This document shows, piece by piece, positions 99-5,492 of a stretch of DNA of 10,311 nt. The position numbers and the translations under genes are program-made. Origin of the DNA: an uncultured Limnohabitans sp. (lineage in GTDB: Bacteria > Pseudomonadota > Gammaproteobacteria > Burkholderiales > Burkholderiaceae_C); assembly GCF_937889215.1 (NCBI RefSeq), contig NZ_CALBEX010000417.1, forward strand, positions 1 through 10,311, read 5' to 3'. The notes under the pieces are model-generated. The model was not told the origin of the DNA, did no database searches, and saw only the letters and a list, made by a program, of their open reading frames with translations. Within the stretch, counting starts at the first letter, position 1; the number at the start of each line of letters is the position of its first letter.

Positions 99-2480
99 TT
101 ACTTTTTAAGGCCTTGCAATTTGGCAAAAGCGCTGGCCATGGCAGAACCGGAGCCAGCGGCTGGGGGCGAGGTATAACCCCCAACCGATCCGCCGCCACG
201 CTGGCGGTTGTCCCGCCCTGCCCCTTCAAACTTGTTGTCTCTCGGGCCATCGCGGCGGGCAGGTGCAGCGTCGAGCTTCATGGTCAAGCTGATGCGCTTG
301 CGGGCCACATCGACTTCGAGCACCTTCACTTTGACGATGTCGCCGGTCTTGACCACCTCGCGGGCGTCGGTCACAAACTTGTTGGCCAGCTGGCTCACAT
401 GCACCAAGCCGTCCTGGTGCACGCCCAAATCGACAAAAGCGCCGAACTGGGCCACGTTGCTCACGGTGCCTTCCAAGGTCATGCCTTCTTTCAGGTCTTT
501 GATGTCTTCCACGCCATCGGCCAGGCGCGCCACCTTGAAGTCGGGGCGTGGGTCGCGGCCGGGTTTTTCCAGCTCACCCAAGATGTCCTTGATGGTGATC
601 GCGCCGAACTTGTCGTTGGCAAACAGCTCAGGCTTGAGGGTTTTCAAAACGTCCGAACGGCCCATGATCTCTTGAATCGGCTTGGCGGTTTTGACGATGA
701 TCTGCTCGACCACCGGGTAGGTTTCGGGGTGCACGCCGGTCATGTCCAGCGGGTTGTCGCCGCCACGAATGCGCAAAAAGCCAGCGCTTTGCTCAAAAGT
801 CTTGGCACCCAGGCCGGTCACTTTGAGCAAATCTTGGCGGGTCTTGAACACGCCATTGGCATCACGCCAACGCACGACCGACTTGGCCACGCTGCCCGAC
901 AGGCCCGACACACGGGTCAGCAAAGGCACGCTGGCCGTGTTCAGGTCCACGCCCACCGAGTTCACGCAGTCTTCCACCACCGCGTCCAGGGTTTTGGCCA
1001 GCTCGCTTTGGTTCACGTCGTGCTGATACTGGCCCACACCAATCGCTTTGGGGTCGATCTTGACCAGCTCTGACAGCGGGTCTTGCAAGCGGCGGGCAAT
1101 GGAGGCCGCGCCACGCAGGCTCACGTCCACGTCGGGCATTTCCTGGCTGGCAAATTCGCTGGCCGAGTACACCGAAGCGCCGGCCTCACTGACCACCACT
1201 TTCGTGATCTCCACCCCATCGCGAATACCTTCTCGCAATCGGGCGAGTTGTTTGATCAGGTCACCCGCCAGTTTGTCGGTCTCGCGGCTGGCGGTGCCAT
1301 TGCCAATGGCGATCAGGTTCACGTTGTGTTTTTCGCACAGCTTGGCCAGGGTGAAGAGCGAGCCCTCCCAGTCCTTGCGCGGCTCGTGCGGGTACACCGT
1401 GGAGGTGTCGACCAGCTTGCCCGTGGCATCGACCACGGCCACTTTCACGCCCGTGCGGATGCCTGGGTCCAGGCCCATGACGACGCGGGGGCCAGCGGGC
1501 GCGGCCAGCAATAGGTCGCGCAGGTTGTCGGCAAACACCTTGATGGCGACCTTTTCGGCGTCTTCGCGCAGGCGGGTGAACAGGTCGCGCTCGGTGGACA
1601 GGCTGAGTTTGACGCGCCAAGTCCAGGCCACGCATTTGCGGATCAGGTCGTCCGAGGGGCGGGCCGCATGGCTCCAGCCCAGGTGCATGGCGATCTTGCC
1701 TTCGGCGATGCTGGGCTTGCCGGGTTCTGGTTCAACAGGAAGAACCAGCTTGGCGTCCAGCATTTCCAGCGCGCGGCCACGGAAGACGGCCAGCGCCCGG
1801 TGGCTGGGCACGCGGCCAATGGGCTCGTCGTAGTCAAAGTAATCGCGAAATTTGGACACATCGGCATTGTTCTCGTCCTTGCCGTCGGCCAGCTTGCTTT
1901 TGAAGAGGCCTTCGTTCCACAGCCATTCGCGCAGAGCTTGCACCAGTGACGCATCTTCAGCCCAACGCTCACTCAGCAAATCGCGCACGCCGTCGAGCAC
2001 AGCGGCGGTGGTGGTGAAGTCCGCGCCTTCAATCGCGCCTGCAGCCAACACAAAGGCTTGCGCTTCGGCATGCGGGTCAAGGCGCGGGTCAACAAACAGC
2101 TTGTCGGCCAAGGGCTCCAGCCCGGCTTCGCGGGCAATCATGCCCTTGGTGCGGCGCTTGGGCTTGAAGGGCAAATACAGGTCTTCCAGCTCTTGTTTGG
2201 TCGGCGCGGCGTCGATGGCGGCCAGCAAATCGGGCGTCATCTTGCCCTGCTCGGTGATGCTTTTGATCACCGCAGCGCGGCGGTCTTCCAGCTCACGCAG
2301 ATAGCCCAGGCGCGACTCCAGCTCGCGCAGCTGGATGTCGTCCAGCCCGTCGGTCACTTCTTTGCGGTATCGGGCAATGAAGGGGACGGTGGCACCACCG
2401 TCCAGCAATTCCACAGCGGTTTTGACTTGGTCTGGGCGGATTCGGATTTCTGCGGCCAGTTGGGCCAGGATTTTTTGCAT
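99..2480 (-). CDS. tex: Tex, S1-domain RNA-binding transcription accessory protein
   Basis: A complete 793-residue Tex protein, the usual length for the family. Tex is a conserved cytoplasmic nucleic-acid-binding protein related to eukaryotic Spt6 and acts in transcription and RNA metabolism. Visible domain order: helical Tex N-terminal region (about 1-200, with the family signature GATVPFIARYRKE at 29-41); YqgF/RNase H-like domain (about 332-430, opening VVMGLDPGIRTG at 333-344); helix-hairpin-helix region (about 505-575, with VSGLSGSVAKSVV and VTGLGAKTFEQSAGFLRI); and an S1 RNA-binding domain (about 663-737, EGTVSNVAQFGAFVDLG through RKRISLTMK). A basic, Gly/Arg-rich tail follows and ends in SAMASAFAKLQGLKK. 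The ATG at 2480 gives the canonical N-terminus. The Shine-Dalgarno sequence is weak (AAGAG only two bases upstream). The patatin-like gene follows after 5 bp. It is divergent from the lipoprotein genes on the other side. Confidence 0.97.
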   Translation of the reverse strand: MQKILAQLAAEIRIRPDQVKTAVELLDGGATVPFIARYRKEVTDGLDDIQLRELESRLGYLRELEDRRAAVIKSITEQGKMTPDLLAAIDAAPTKQELEDLYLPFKPKRRTKGMIAREAGLEPLADKLFVDPRLDPHAEAQAFVLAAGAIEGADFTTTAAVLDGVRDLLSERWAEDASLVQALREWLWNEGLFKSKLADGKDENNADVSKFRDYFDYDEPIGRVPSHRALAVFRGRALEMLDAKLVLPVEPEPGKPSIAEGKIAMHLGWSHAARPSDDLIRKCVAWTWRVKLSLSTERDLFTRLREDAEKVAIKVFADNLRDLLLAAPAGPRVVMGLDPGIRTGVKVAVVDATGKLVDTSTVYPHEPRKDWEGSLFTLAKLCEKHNVNLIAIGNGTASRETDKLAGDLIKQLARLREGIRDGVEITKVVVSEAGASVYSASEFASQEMPDVDVSLRGAASIARRLQDPLSELVKIDPKAIGVGQYQHDVNQSELAKTLDAVVEDCVNSVGVDLNTASVPLLTRVSGLSGSVAKSVVRWRDANGVFKTRQDLLKVTGLGAKTFEQSAGFLRIRGGDNPLDMTGVHPETYPVVEQIIVKTAKPIQEIMGRSDVLKTLKPELFANDKFGAITIKDILGELEKPGRDPRPDFKVARLADGVEDIKDLKEGMTLEGTVSNVAQFGAFVDLGVHQDGLVHVSQLANKFVTDAREVVKTGDIVKVKVLEVDVARKRISLTMKLDAAPARRDGPRDNKFEGAGRDNRQRGGGSVGGYTSPPAAGSGSAMASAFAKLQGLKK

Positions 2481-2758: not shown

Positions 2759-3151
2759 ATGACAATTTTCAACAAATCCGCAATTCGCCACACCACTCGC
2801 CGTTTGGCCTTGGCTTGCGCAGCCGGTGTGTTGCTGGTGTTGACTGGCTGCGCCTCGGTGCAAGGTCCATCTTTGCCGGTCTCCGAGTTGGAGTCTTTCG
2901 TGCCCGTAGCCAAGCATGCCCGAGTCATGAACGACGTCAAAGTCCGTTGGGAAGTTCGTGAAAACGTCTCAGAAGTCTGCAGCCGGGCCGCCAAGCTCAC
3001 GACCACACAAGCCTGGATGACTCCCCCGCTGGCCTGCGCGATGTGGAATGTGGCCAGCAATGAATGCGTGATCATCACAGGCAAAAAAGTTTCCCACGTT
3101 GAGCTGGGTCACGAGTTGCGCCATTGCTTCGAAGGCAATTTCCACCGTTGA
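2759..3151 (+). CDS. Small lipoprotein with C-terminal HExxH motif, paralogue 1
   Basis: A 130-residue predicted lipoprotein of a family I cannot name. The N-terminus has basic residues, a hydrophobic stretch (about 16-28) and a lipobox LTGC at 28-31. Cys31 would be lipidated, and Ala at +2 favours outer-membrane sorting. The mature part has WEVR (64-67), TPP (88-90), ACAMW (92-96), cysteines at 74, 93, 103 and 123, and ends LGHELRHCFEGNFHR. HELRH (118-122) is a perfect HExxH zinc-peptidase motif, with E125 and H129 as possible third ligands. The start is supported by GGAG at 2749-2752, six bases before the ATG. The stop TGA is followed at once by an in-frame TAA. A same-length paralogue follows 96 bp downstream. 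A lipid-anchored periplasmic metalloprotein is an inference; protease activity is unproven and the motif could be structural. Confidence 0.85.
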   Translation: MTIFNKSAIRHTTRRLALACAAGVLLVLTGCASVQGPSLPVSELESFVPVAKHARVMNDVKVRWEVRENVSEVCSRAAKLTTTQAWMTPPLACAMWNVASNECVIITGKKVSHVELGHELRHCFEGNFHR

Positions 3152-3196
3152 TAAGCACACACCGATGAAACATTCATGACTTTAGGGTCTTTTTAA

Positions 3197-3224
3197 TTAG
3201 AAATTGTTGTATTTGATATACAAT
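3197..3224 (+). promoter_or_regulatory. Putative promoter for lipoprotein gene 2 (good -10, weak -35)
   Basis: TACAAT (3219-3224) matches the -10 consensus at 5 of 6 positions. The best -35 at a 16-bp spacing is the poor TTAGAA (3197-3202). Transcription would begin near 3231, giving a leader of only about 17 nt. The poor -35 would fit dependence on an activator, but this is inference. Confidence 0.3.
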
Positions 3225-3226
3225 TT
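3201..3226. promoter_or_regulatory. Candidate operator: 7-bp inverted repeat over the -10 of lipoprotein gene 2
   Basis: AAATTGT (3201-3207) and ACAATTT (3220-3226) are perfect inverted arms around a 12-base centre. The right arm overlaps the proposed -10, where a bound protein would block transcription. Aligned on GTATTT, this site and the dyad at 2668-2690 agree at 17 of 28 positions by my count, mainly in GTATTT-AT-ACAA. A shared regulator is possible but not shown. Confidence 0.3.
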
Positions 3227-3247
3227 GCCAATTCATACATTCTCATC

Positions 3248-3640
3248 ATGCGCAAAGCGGTTGTTGTTTCATCTTTTTTTCGGTCTGCCTTCTTACGCTT
3301 TGCATTCTTGACCATCCTGCTGTTAACAGTGAGCGGATGCCAAACAGTGGCAAGCCACAAAGTCGCGGCTCACGAATTCATCCCATTCAACGTCATGCCT
3401 GCCCAGCACCGCATCATGAATCAGGTGCGCATCAACTGGGAAGTGCGTGACGATGTGGCACACGTCTGCGCCCATGCGTACAGCATGGGACGCCAACAGG
3501 CTTACTTAACCCCTCCCGTGGCCTGCGCCATTTGGGACATCCTCAAAGCAGAATGCACGGTGGTCACCGGCCCGTTGACCAGCCATGTGGCCTTAGGCCA
3601 CGAACTCAGGCACTGCTTTGAAGGCCACTATCACCGATAA
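3248..3640 (+). CDS. Small lipoprotein with C-terminal HExxH motif, paralogue 2
   Basis: A 130-residue paralogue of the preceding lipoprotein. The signal peptide differs (hydrophobic about 14-28, lipobox VSGC at 28-31, Gln at +2, so outer-membrane sorting is likely), but the mature domain aligns without gaps. I count 41 identities in the last 80 residues. Cysteines 31, 74, 93, 103 and 123 fall at identical positions. Shared blocks are WEVR (64-67), TPP (88-90), ACA.W (92-96), EC (102-103), SHV.LGHELRHCFEG (112-126) and a terminal HR. HELRH at 118-122 is the HExxH motif. No Shine-Dalgarno tract precedes the ATG at 3248, yet no other start would keep the signal peptide. It probably has its own promoter, since the gap holds a -10-like box. 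The function is unknown: a lipid-anchored periplasmic metalloprotein is the best guess. Confidence 0.84.
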   Translation: MRKAVVVSSFFRSAFLRFAFLTILLLTVSGCQTVASHKVAAHEFIPFNVMPAQHRIMNQVRINWEVRDDVAHVCAHAYSMGRQQAYLTPPVACAIWDILKAECTVVTGPLTSHVALGHELRHCFEGHYHR

Positions 3641-3655
3641 AACCGGCCATCGGTT
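3641..3655. terminator. Small hairpin between convergent genes, possible weak terminator
   Basis: AACCG (3641-3645) and CGGTT (3651-3655) pair around a 5-base loop, starting immediately after the stop of lipoprotein gene 2 and touching the stop of the convergent SDR gene. On the minus strand the stem runs into TTTT, which could give weak intrinsic termination for the long operon. On the plus strand no T-tract follows. The stem is short, so confidence is low. Confidence 0.25.
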
Positions 3656-4560
3656 CAGCATCCGCGCAATGCATTGCGCAGCTTGTCGCCCAGATCGGGG
3701 CGTGCTGCAAACGGGTCGGGCGGGTTGTGGCCTTGCACGATGGCTTCCATGCGGCTTTGCACGTTGCCCAGCGCTTGGGGGTGGCTGTAGATGTAAAACT
3801 GGTCGCTGGCAACGGCATCAAACACTTTTTGGGCCACATCGGCCGCTGACACTTTGCCACTGCTGACGGCTTTGTCGCTTTGGGCTTGGCCAATCAATTG
3901 GCTGGCTGTGGGTTTGTCAGCCGCCAGATCGGTGGGGCGGTTGCGTTGGCTTTGGCTGATGCCGGTGGGCACAAAATAAGGGCACAAGACGCTGGCGCTG
4001 ACTTGGTCGGTCACCAAGTGCAGGTCTTGGTAGAGGGTTTCTGTCAAAGCCACCACGGCGTGTTTGCTGACGTTGTAGATGCCCATGTTGGGCGCAGTGA
4101 GCAAACCGGCCATGCTGGCGGTGTTGACGATGTGGCCGCGGTAAGCCGGGTCGGCCTTGGCGGCGGCAAGCATCATGGGCGTGAACAAGCGCACGCCGTG
4201 CACCACGCCCCAGAGGTTGACGCCCAGCACCCATTCCCAGTCGGCGACCGAGTTTTCCCAAACCAAGCCCCCTGCCCCCACGCCCGCGTTGTTGAACACG
4301 AAGTGCGGTGCGCCAAAGCGCTCTTGCACGTCGGTGGCCAGCTGTTCCATGGCCTGGGCGTTGGAGACATCCACTTTGCGAGCCAGCACTTGCGCGCCTT
4401 GGGCGGTCATTTCGGCTTCGGCCTTGTCGAGTGCGTCTTGCTGCACGTCGATCAGCACCAGGTTCATGCCCAGTTTGGCACCGATGCGGGCGCATTCCAG
4501 CCCGAAGCCCGAGCCTGCACCCGTCAAGACGGCGGTTTTGCCTTGGAAGTTGTCAATCAT
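3655..4560 (-). CDS. SDR family NAD(P)-dependent oxidoreductase (last gene of operon)
   Basis: A 301-residue classical short-chain dehydrogenase/reductase, somewhat longer than the usual 250. The Rossmann motif TGAGSGFG is at 13-20. D38 at the end of the second strand suggests a preference for NAD(H). D64, NNAG (90-93), N115, catalytic S149 (NTASMAG), and Y162 and K166 (YNVSK) complete an intact active site. A C-terminal extension of about 50 residues (YIYSHPQALGNVQSRMEAI onward) resembles that of SDRs often found beside acyl-CoA genes. The ATG at 4560 overlaps the stop of the GST-like gene as ATGA and has AAGG seven bases upstream, indicating translational coupling. Upstream in-frame codons belong to the overlapping gene's shadow and look non-native. 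The likely role is oxidation or reduction of a hydroxyl/keto group on a lipid or hydrophobic substrate; the actual substrate is unknown. Confidence 0.93.
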   Translation of the reverse strand: MIDNFQGKTAVLTGAGSGFGLECARIGAKLGMNLVLIDVQQDALDKAEAEMTAQGAQVLARKVDVSNAQAMEQLATDVQERFGAPHFVFNNAGVGAGGLVWENSVADWEWVLGVNLWGVVHGVRLFTPMMLAAAKADPAYRGHIVNTASMAGLLTAPNMGIYNVSKHAVVALTETLYQDLHLVTDQVSASVLCPYFVPTGISQSQRNRPTDLAADKPTASQLIGQAQSDKAVSSGKVSAADVAQKVFDAVASDQFYIYSHPQALGNVQSRMEAIVQGHNPPDPFAARPDLGDKLRNALRGC

Positions 4561-5492
4561 GGTGTGGCCTTTTTCAAAGTGAATCCCACGCGAGGAAAGT
4601 GAACATGGACCGTGCCGGTCTGCGCATCGCTGCGGCGCAGGGTGTAACGGGTGCGGGTGGCGGCGATCAATTCGCCTTCGGTGGGCTCCAGCCCAAAGTG
4701 GTCGGCCGCGATCACGACCTGGCTGCCCAGGGCGATGCCGTGTGCGTCCTGAAAAGTTTGATCTTGCAAAGCCGCTGGCGTGGCGTTGTGGGCCACTTGC
4801 AGAGCTTCTGCGGCATGGCACTTGCCGGGTGTGCCCTGCCCGATGGCTTTCATGCGGGCCATCCAAGATTTGACCTCGGGTGTCGCGTCAAAAATACCGG
4901 CCAAGGCGGGCGTGCGCTCTTGCGTGAACCACAACGGGTGATAGGCGGCAAAGTCGGCCAAGCTGGCTTGTGCGCCGAGCAAGAAGTCTTGCCCTTGCAG
5001 CATGTTGGCCAGGTGACGCAGATAGCTTTGGTAGGTGGGGGTCGCTTCGGCGGGCGACATGCGCGCCGCGCCGCTGCGCATGGCCGTGCGGTCGGCCACA
5101 AAGGCCTGCACGCCTTCTGCAGGCGCACCGGCAAAGACCTGTGCCACGCCTGCGGGCTGAAAGTTGTAGGCCATGGCGGCGGTGAACAAGGCGCTGTCGG
5201 CCCATTGCGCCACGATGCGGGCATTGCCTTCAACACCCGCGGGGTACAAGCTGGGCGTGGGCGCAATGTGCTCCAGCACATCGCAAATCAGGGCCGTGTC
5301 GCAATACACGTCCGCACCGATCTGCAACACCGGGGTTTTGCGGTAACCGCCCGTGAGCGCTGTCAGCTCGGGCTTGGGCATGACCATCGGGATGAACACG
5401 CTTTTCCAGGCCAGTTGTTTGTGGCCCAAAACCAGCCGGATCTTCTCGGCAAACGGCGAGGTTGGGTAGTGGTGCAGGATCAGATCGGACAT
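4557..5492 (-). CDS. Glutathione S-transferase-like protein with extra C-terminal domain
   Basis: A 311-residue protein. Residues 1-80 form a GST N-terminal thioredoxin-like fold: HHYPTSPFAEKIRLVL (7-22) with S12 in the catalytic position, TPVL (53-56) with the cis-proline, and DT (65-66) in place of the usual glutathione-binding ES. Residues about 90-220 are the helical GST C-terminal domain (FLLGAQASLADFAAYHPLW at 170-188). A further 85-90 residues, predicted to be strand-rich, follow (HGIALGSQVVIAADHFG, GTVHVHFPRVGF); plain GSTs of about 200-230 residues lack them. The start is fixed by GAGG (5504-5501), eight bases before the ATG and overlapping the stop of the upstream MDR gene. The stop overlaps the next gene as ATGA. 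Conjugation or isomerisation of an electrophilic intermediate is plausible from context but not demonstrated. Confidence 0.88.
   Translation of the reverse strand: MSDLILHHYPTSPFAEKIRLVLGHKQLAWKSVFIPMVMPKPELTALTGGYRKTPVLQIGADVYCDTALICDVLEHIAPTPSLYPAGVEGNARIVAQWADSALFTAAMAYNFQPAGVAQVFAGAPAEGVQAFVADRTAMRSGAARMSPAEATPTYQSYLRHLANMLQGQDFLLGAQASLADFAAYHPLWFTQERTPALAGIFDATPEVKSWMARMKAIGQGTPGKCHAAEALQVAHNATPAALQDQTFQDAHGIALGSQVVIAADHFGLEPTEGELIAATRTRYTLRRSDAQTGTVHVHFPRVGFTLKKATP

Follow-up and report, generated by a model that had tools for sequence, protein, structure and literature searches.

We describe a pair of adjacent genes in a 10,311-nt stretch of DNA (the window) from an uncultured Limnohabitans sp. 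(contig NZ_CALBEX010000417.1 of a 2.7-Mb, 82%-complete assembly). As judged from sequence conservation and a predicted model, both genes probably, though far from certainly, encode lipid-anchored zinc endopeptidases of the cell envelope, built as minimal zincins. If this is true, they belong to a family of very small zincins whose last ligand sits right at the C-terminus and which is present in phages and in Limnohabitans, a common freshwater genus. An earlier note, made from the DNA letters alone, had already described two adjacent genes for putative lipoproteins of 130 residues each, and we could confirm both open reading frames (ORFs) and their lipobox patterns. Each protein shows a hydrophobic signal followed by the lipobox cysteine, Cys31, as recognized by pattern and not by a dedicated predictor. 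The pair comprises the following features:

2759..3151 including stop, plus strand: gene 1, a putative 130-aa lipoprotein of a mini-zincin-like family (ORF; 100% match in its own genome)
2840..2851, plus strand: lipobox of gene 1, LTGC, residues 28-31, followed by Ala (pattern only)
3110..3145, plus strand: putative metal site of gene 1, HELRHCFEGNFH, with H118, E119, H122 and H129 (conservation; a predicted helix, residues 113-125, spans HExxH)
3248..3640 including stop, plus strand: gene 2, the 130-aa paralogue (ORF; found as the second location in its own genome)
3329..3340, plus strand: lipobox of gene 2, VSGC, residues 28-31, followed by Gln (pattern only)
3599..3634, plus strand: putative metal site of gene 2, HELRHCFEGHYH, with H118, E119, H122 and H129 (conservation)

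The early alignments, including one of 79 members, were gathered with the pattern HE[LV]RHCF. Since the motif had thereby been seeded, the conservation of HExxH rests on two other searches. A whole-domain profile search of the genus returned 146 family ORFs, 96 of them with HExxHC; a later His follows in 95 of the 96, and the single active-type ORF without it is the broken copy L277. A search of IMG/VR with the part upstream of the motif from eight phage proteins yielded 39 loci with 22 distinct C-termini. Two of these are cut by a contig end or a stop, while all 20 complete ones contain HExxHC and then a His seven residues past the second His. Both sets thus display the clan MA feature of HExxH with a C-terminal third ligand. 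Arg121, invariant in the seeded alignment, is variable in the phage proteins retrieved without the motif. These counts support the view that the zincin-type site of active-type members does not vary freely. Free variation of HExxH, named in the earlier note as a sign against a small zincin, was not seen in these members; a clade of 49 others, treated below, has lost the Glu as one group.

The predicted model is confident and consists of three strands and a few short helices, with four conserved cysteines in the predicted mature domain. Matches to solved structures were weak, with zincins and unrelated folds side by side; zincin families missing from the match lists are not thereby excluded. 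The absence of a convincing structural match lowers the weight of the finding. The motif and the later His strengthen the small-zincin idea of the earlier note.

The proteins deviate from each zincin family with which we compared them. In place of the metzincin HExxHxxGxxH, the window proteins carry HELRHCFEGxxH, one residue longer, and no metzincin Met-turn follows the third His; both chains end one residue after H129. Two divergent members, L276 and L288 (genomes G571 and G585), have HEVWHCMGAFHH, which contains the metzincin-spaced HExxHxxGxxH. For the PF06262 mini-zincins there was no Pfam match and no HEXXHXXGXXD, the third residue being His, and PF06262 was found in none of 40 genomes of the bacterial family. 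SprT-like (PF10263) and Peptidase_M78 (PF06114) likewise gave no Pfam match, and hhalign returned probabilities of 1.0 and 2.1, respectively, over 10-11 columns (a 5-row alignment keeping 5 of 6 SprT rows and a 3-row alignment keeping 3 of 10 M78 rows, the dropped rows being without motif or out of frame). If our inference holds, the family would work like a zincin while lacking the tested features of metzincins, PF06262, SprT and M78. That so small a domain can carry the zincin fold is indicated by Acel_2062 and the PF06262 mini-zincins, in the part of the report available to us (PMC3890501). That part describes a single minimal zincin-like domain with a very short tail past the third ligand and without Met-turn, as in our family; it differs in having HEXXHXXGXXD and no signal peptide, whereas the window family has HExxH with a His seven residues on and is predicted to be exported.

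We propose that, after export, lipidation of Cys31 would tether a domain of about 95 residues, in which the four conserved cysteines may pair as two disulfides. The last helix would contribute H118 and H122 as zinc ligands and the C-terminus H129, E119 would activate water, and the enzyme would cut an envelope or surface protein at short range from its anchor. We infer lipidation, zinc binding, proteolysis and disulfides; an outer-membrane or surface protein as substrate is a guess.

The likeness between the two proteins is far above chance (BLASTP: 50/115 identities, zero gaps, E 8e-40). Aligned without gaps, they share 51 of 130 residues; our recount agrees with the 41 of 80 previously given for the C-terminal part, and the 10 of 50 at the N-terminus fit the description of freely diverged signal peptides. 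Five cysteines align as stated before (lipobox C31, C74, C93, C103 and C123), and gene 1 has a sixth, C20. We calculated pairwise ratios of nonsynonymous to synonymous substitution rates (dN/dS) over the final 95 codons at nine loci with two copies, the window among them (the tenth, L256, was excluded). The median is 0.04 in gene 1, where dS is near saturation and 33 of 36 comparisons could be used, and 0.12 in gene 2, where all 36 could. These values support purifying selection on the window genes and are in line with the old duplication and selected mature domain suggested earlier. In a tree of 186 rows and 115 columns, gene 1 lies in an 11-row clade (Shimodaira-Hasegawa-like approximate likelihood ratio test, SH-aLRT, 100) and gene 2 in a 13-row clade (SH-aLRT 99) that includes single-copy rows of three genomes. 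Because the columns are few, the tree is unrooted and a long-branch warning was raised, it does not settle the deep order, including the direction of transfer between phage and host. The two copies would be old paralogues kept in one Limnohabitans branch, both active-type and diverged.

The family includes a group of pseudo-enzymes. The Glu is missing from 50 of the 146 genus ORFs. Apart from a fragment of L277, these form a single clade of 49 in the tree, with Leu (36) or Ala (13) at position 119. No His occupies the place of H129 in any of these dead copies (L231 has one a residue earlier), while the Cys after the motif is kept in all 49, as the placement pattern requires. The Glu was lost in one group at fixed gene positions and not at random: 36 of the 49 immediately precede an active copy, and the reverse order does not occur. 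With the in-frame start closest to the upstream stop, a choice that favours short overlaps, 30 of these 36 pairs show an overlap of 1 or 4 nt; the other six distances are -8, -8, +1, +2, +4 and +23. In the L077 and L180 pairs, inspected by eye, only the active partner shows a lipobox, the signal peptide of the dead paralogue being plain. These coupled paralogues suggest that the activity needs restraint or guidance, and we think that the co-translated dead protein probably binds or restrains the active copy. All 13 lone dead copies follow the receiver-domain end of a hybrid histidine kinase (the domains HisKA, HATPase_c and Response_reg were scanned in L184 only), for which they are a possible periplasmic sensor partner. 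Lone copies of the GNAVRxC type were seen behind the kinase at L184:2940-5289, L201, L209, L215, L222, L229, L232, L236, L242, L249, L252, L254, L264 and L282.

If this reading is right, the family would provide a natural experiment on pseudo-enzymes, with dead and live copies whose order is fixed and whose frames overlap, and with other dead copies tied to a two-component kinase. Dead relatives acting with live ones are also known from regulatory pseudopeptidases, but the portion of that review at hand describes no bacterial family with fixed order and overlapping frames (PMC11266112). Tentatively, one may picture a zincin/pseudozincin system common to freshwater phages and Limnohabitans. Here, the translationally coupled soluble dead paralogue would serve as inhibitor, chaperone or substrate-presenting subunit of its lipid-anchored active partner, other dead copies would be periplasmic sensors for a hybrid histidine kinase, and the window pair would represent a branch with both copies active.

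Freshwater phages carry the family too, as a lone accessory gene for a secreted protein. A motif-based scan of IMG/VR, whose contigs are predicted viruses, gave 126 encoding stretches, of which 80 loci were kept. There is one copy in 84 of 85 viral loci (some share a contig), and the copy in the remaining one is split by a stop; a hydrophobic N-terminus was found in 57 of 57 distinct viral sequences. Neighbours, named by scanning cluster representatives, include a polymerase-like cluster in 20 of 55 distinct viral loci. A cluster whose representative resembles translation initiation factor IF-1 (PF01176, E 4e-20) is present in 21 of the 55, among them L118:6269-6535, so that IF-1-like genes are borne by phages. 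A role in a phage lysis cassette is unlikely: ten neighbour-cluster representatives gave no holin or spanin match and one weak partial endolysin match (E 6e-5). However, glycosidase-like ORFs 4-5 kb off in L109, recognized by eye, weigh against dropping it. The single secreted phage copies and the clade of 49 pseudo-enzymes are new here. The finding would otherwise be modest but gains from the metal-site test without a seeded motif, from the phage branch and from the coupled dead paralogues.

The window pair has a recurrent chromosomal address, with these surroundings:

99..2480, minus strand: Tex-like gene, conserved left flank (name by eye)
3152..3247, no strand: 96-base intergenic gap with one promoter-like match at 3213-3241 (sequence)
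3655..4866, minus strand: SDR oxidoreductase ORF, conserved right flank (NF004843, match from about residue 104)

In NCBIfam, the Tex-like ORF had only partial S1-domain and comEA-type matches, both under cut-off, and NF004843 scored above cut-off for the SDR ORF. A motif-based scan of species genomes gave 106 encoding stretches; the 78 loci kept all come from Limnohabitans, Comamonadaceae, Burkholderiales or other beta-proteobacterial records. A tex and an SDR match are both present at 43 of them, and tex alone at four more. Since only 8 of the 43 are two-copy loci and 35 have one copy, the window shows the less common form of a stable locus. The idea that homologues always come in pairs does not hold, also because 51 of 98 genus loci are single. 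Ten genus loci have two active-type genes, spaced by 90-267 nt. A palindrome in the window gap was not kept in the nine other two-copy loci, as judged with one pattern. The two genes need not share a transcript, and the window copies are probably expressed separately. The two-copy locus is also present in Limnohabitans sp. 2KL-51 and Bal53 (L016, L019), two records whose titles point to strains and not to metagenome bins, and the reading is therefore open to experiment.

Other roles can be envisaged for the family; besides an envelope peptidase, the earlier note considered an immunity or maturation system, which the pair may likewise provide. It is conceivable, if somewhat doubtful, that the gene acts in superinfection exclusion or anti-phage defence. 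It would then be an accessory gene of phages that the host has retained or taken up, and its product would modify a phage receptor or stop DNA from entering at the envelope. Such a role may or may not use catalysis and could coexist with a lipid-anchored endopeptidase. The single copies with export signal in 84 of the 85 viral loci are consistent with it. So is gene orientation: in 22 of 55 distinct viral loci the gene runs against those on either side, as free-standing accessory genes often do. In 17 of the 55, however, it is co-directional with both. In a second Burkholderiales genus, two of four loci read place a copy in an island with WYL, IetA-like AAA and Cas4-like/DUF2779 proteins, but island membership is no proof, and the other two sit among ordinary genes. 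The window copies, moreover, have a stable address with both flanks in 43 of 78 loci and no prophage, and the tree does not settle the direction of transfer.

It is unlikely that the proteins are non-catalytic lipoproteins, metal-binding or stabilized by disulfides, in which the His/Glu cluster has a structural role or serves to capture a metal or partner. This would agree with the weak structural matches, with four conserved cysteines that could hold the fold and with a whole clade persisting without Glu. Yet that clade has lost the terminal His too, and members retrieved without the motif keep the exact HE..H spacing and the further His even though the residues between vary. Still less probable is a role like that of a dedicated adhesin protease, in which a large surface protein would be processed or released. 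The L077 pair type does lie directly downstream of a protein with six Big_13 (bacterial Ig-like) stretches, adjoining an OmpA-family gene, and homologues of the C-terminus of this protein occur near 13 of 98 genus loci, a number restricted by the short flanks and by the query of 130 residues. No such neighbour exists at the window pair, and the 13 loci compare with 36 that have a dead/active pair.

For the proposed envelope endopeptidase, Listeria Mtz/Tim is a precedent for the arrangement, not for this family. By its description in the part of the source available, Mtz is a phage-derived exported HExxH protease with an adjoining partner gene that alters the envelope, and Tim carries an SPI or SPII (signal peptidase I or II) signal depending on the host (PMC8235301). 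In that account, Mtz is a metzincin with a Met-turn and its partner a TIMP-like substrate, whereas the partners here are paralogues.

No curated Pfam or NCBIfam family fits the window proteins, in agreement with the earlier statement that their core matches no nameable family. Pfam gave zero families up to E 5 for either protein, and two NCBIfam rows for gene 2 (E 0.08 and 0.11) were taken as chance. The nearest catalogued family is PHROG 27783, of unknown function (gene 1 E 9.2e-5, gene 2 E 0.0028; all other PHROGs rows above E 0.05). It was matched by 72 of the 79 members of the motif-seeded alignment (E <= 0.01), on the C-terminal part that holds HExxH, but its entry describes no function, fold or lipobox, and the bacterial lipoprotein and pseudo-enzyme branches lie outside its description. 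Among the same 79 members, single-member PHROG matches to a Cor exclusion protein and an Rz-like spanin, and scattered Pfam matches (best E 0.0004, one member), were taken as noise. A sequence search of the PDB found no match below E 1. With tblastn, gene 1 had no match in annotated phage and plasmid collections and four viral members none in annotated phages, so that no phage or host can be named. In the open-licence PMC literature, no description of this family was among the matches listed, and the motif words and PHROG number retrieved no paper.

Among 5.8 billion proteins, gene 1 as query found 195 relatives (E <= 0.001; 233 candidates) and an 8-sequence profile 1539 (E <= 0.01; 7993 candidates scored); none among the matches listed, 120 rows per protein search, carries a Pfam domain. 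By a loose pattern with heuristic start codons, 78 of 86 distinct bacterial and 9 of 57 distinct viral sequences have a lipobox, about three of the nine looking spurious; the lipobox is thus not a constant feature of homologues, as had been asked. Within the genus, matches occur in 50 of 90 genomes (in 36 of the 56 good ones), with 51 single, 46 double and one triple among the 98 loci; one of the doubles consists of fragments of the broken L277. In the sole triple, L220 (genome G526, contig 11), a dead and an active copy are accompanied by an ORF of 51 residues that has another intact HExxHC end. In draws of limited search sensitivity, a single-sequence query matched 3 of 150 genomes of the bacterial family, namely the window's own, one congener and one with a 43-residue match (E 7e-4) taken as chance; 2 of 369 class genomes and 3 of 398 phylum genomes match, own genome counted. 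A distant relative without Pfam match, at L192:4844-5227 on the minus strand (genome G415, from another family of the class), ends in GHEVLHCFYGSYHRY. The second Burkholderiales genus has matches in 7 of 121 genomes. In two of its genomes (L456:2418-13806, where domains were scanned, and L464, judged from similar ORFs), the island around a phage-like copy encodes two WYL regulators, an IetA-like AAA protein and a DUF2779/Cas4-like protein.
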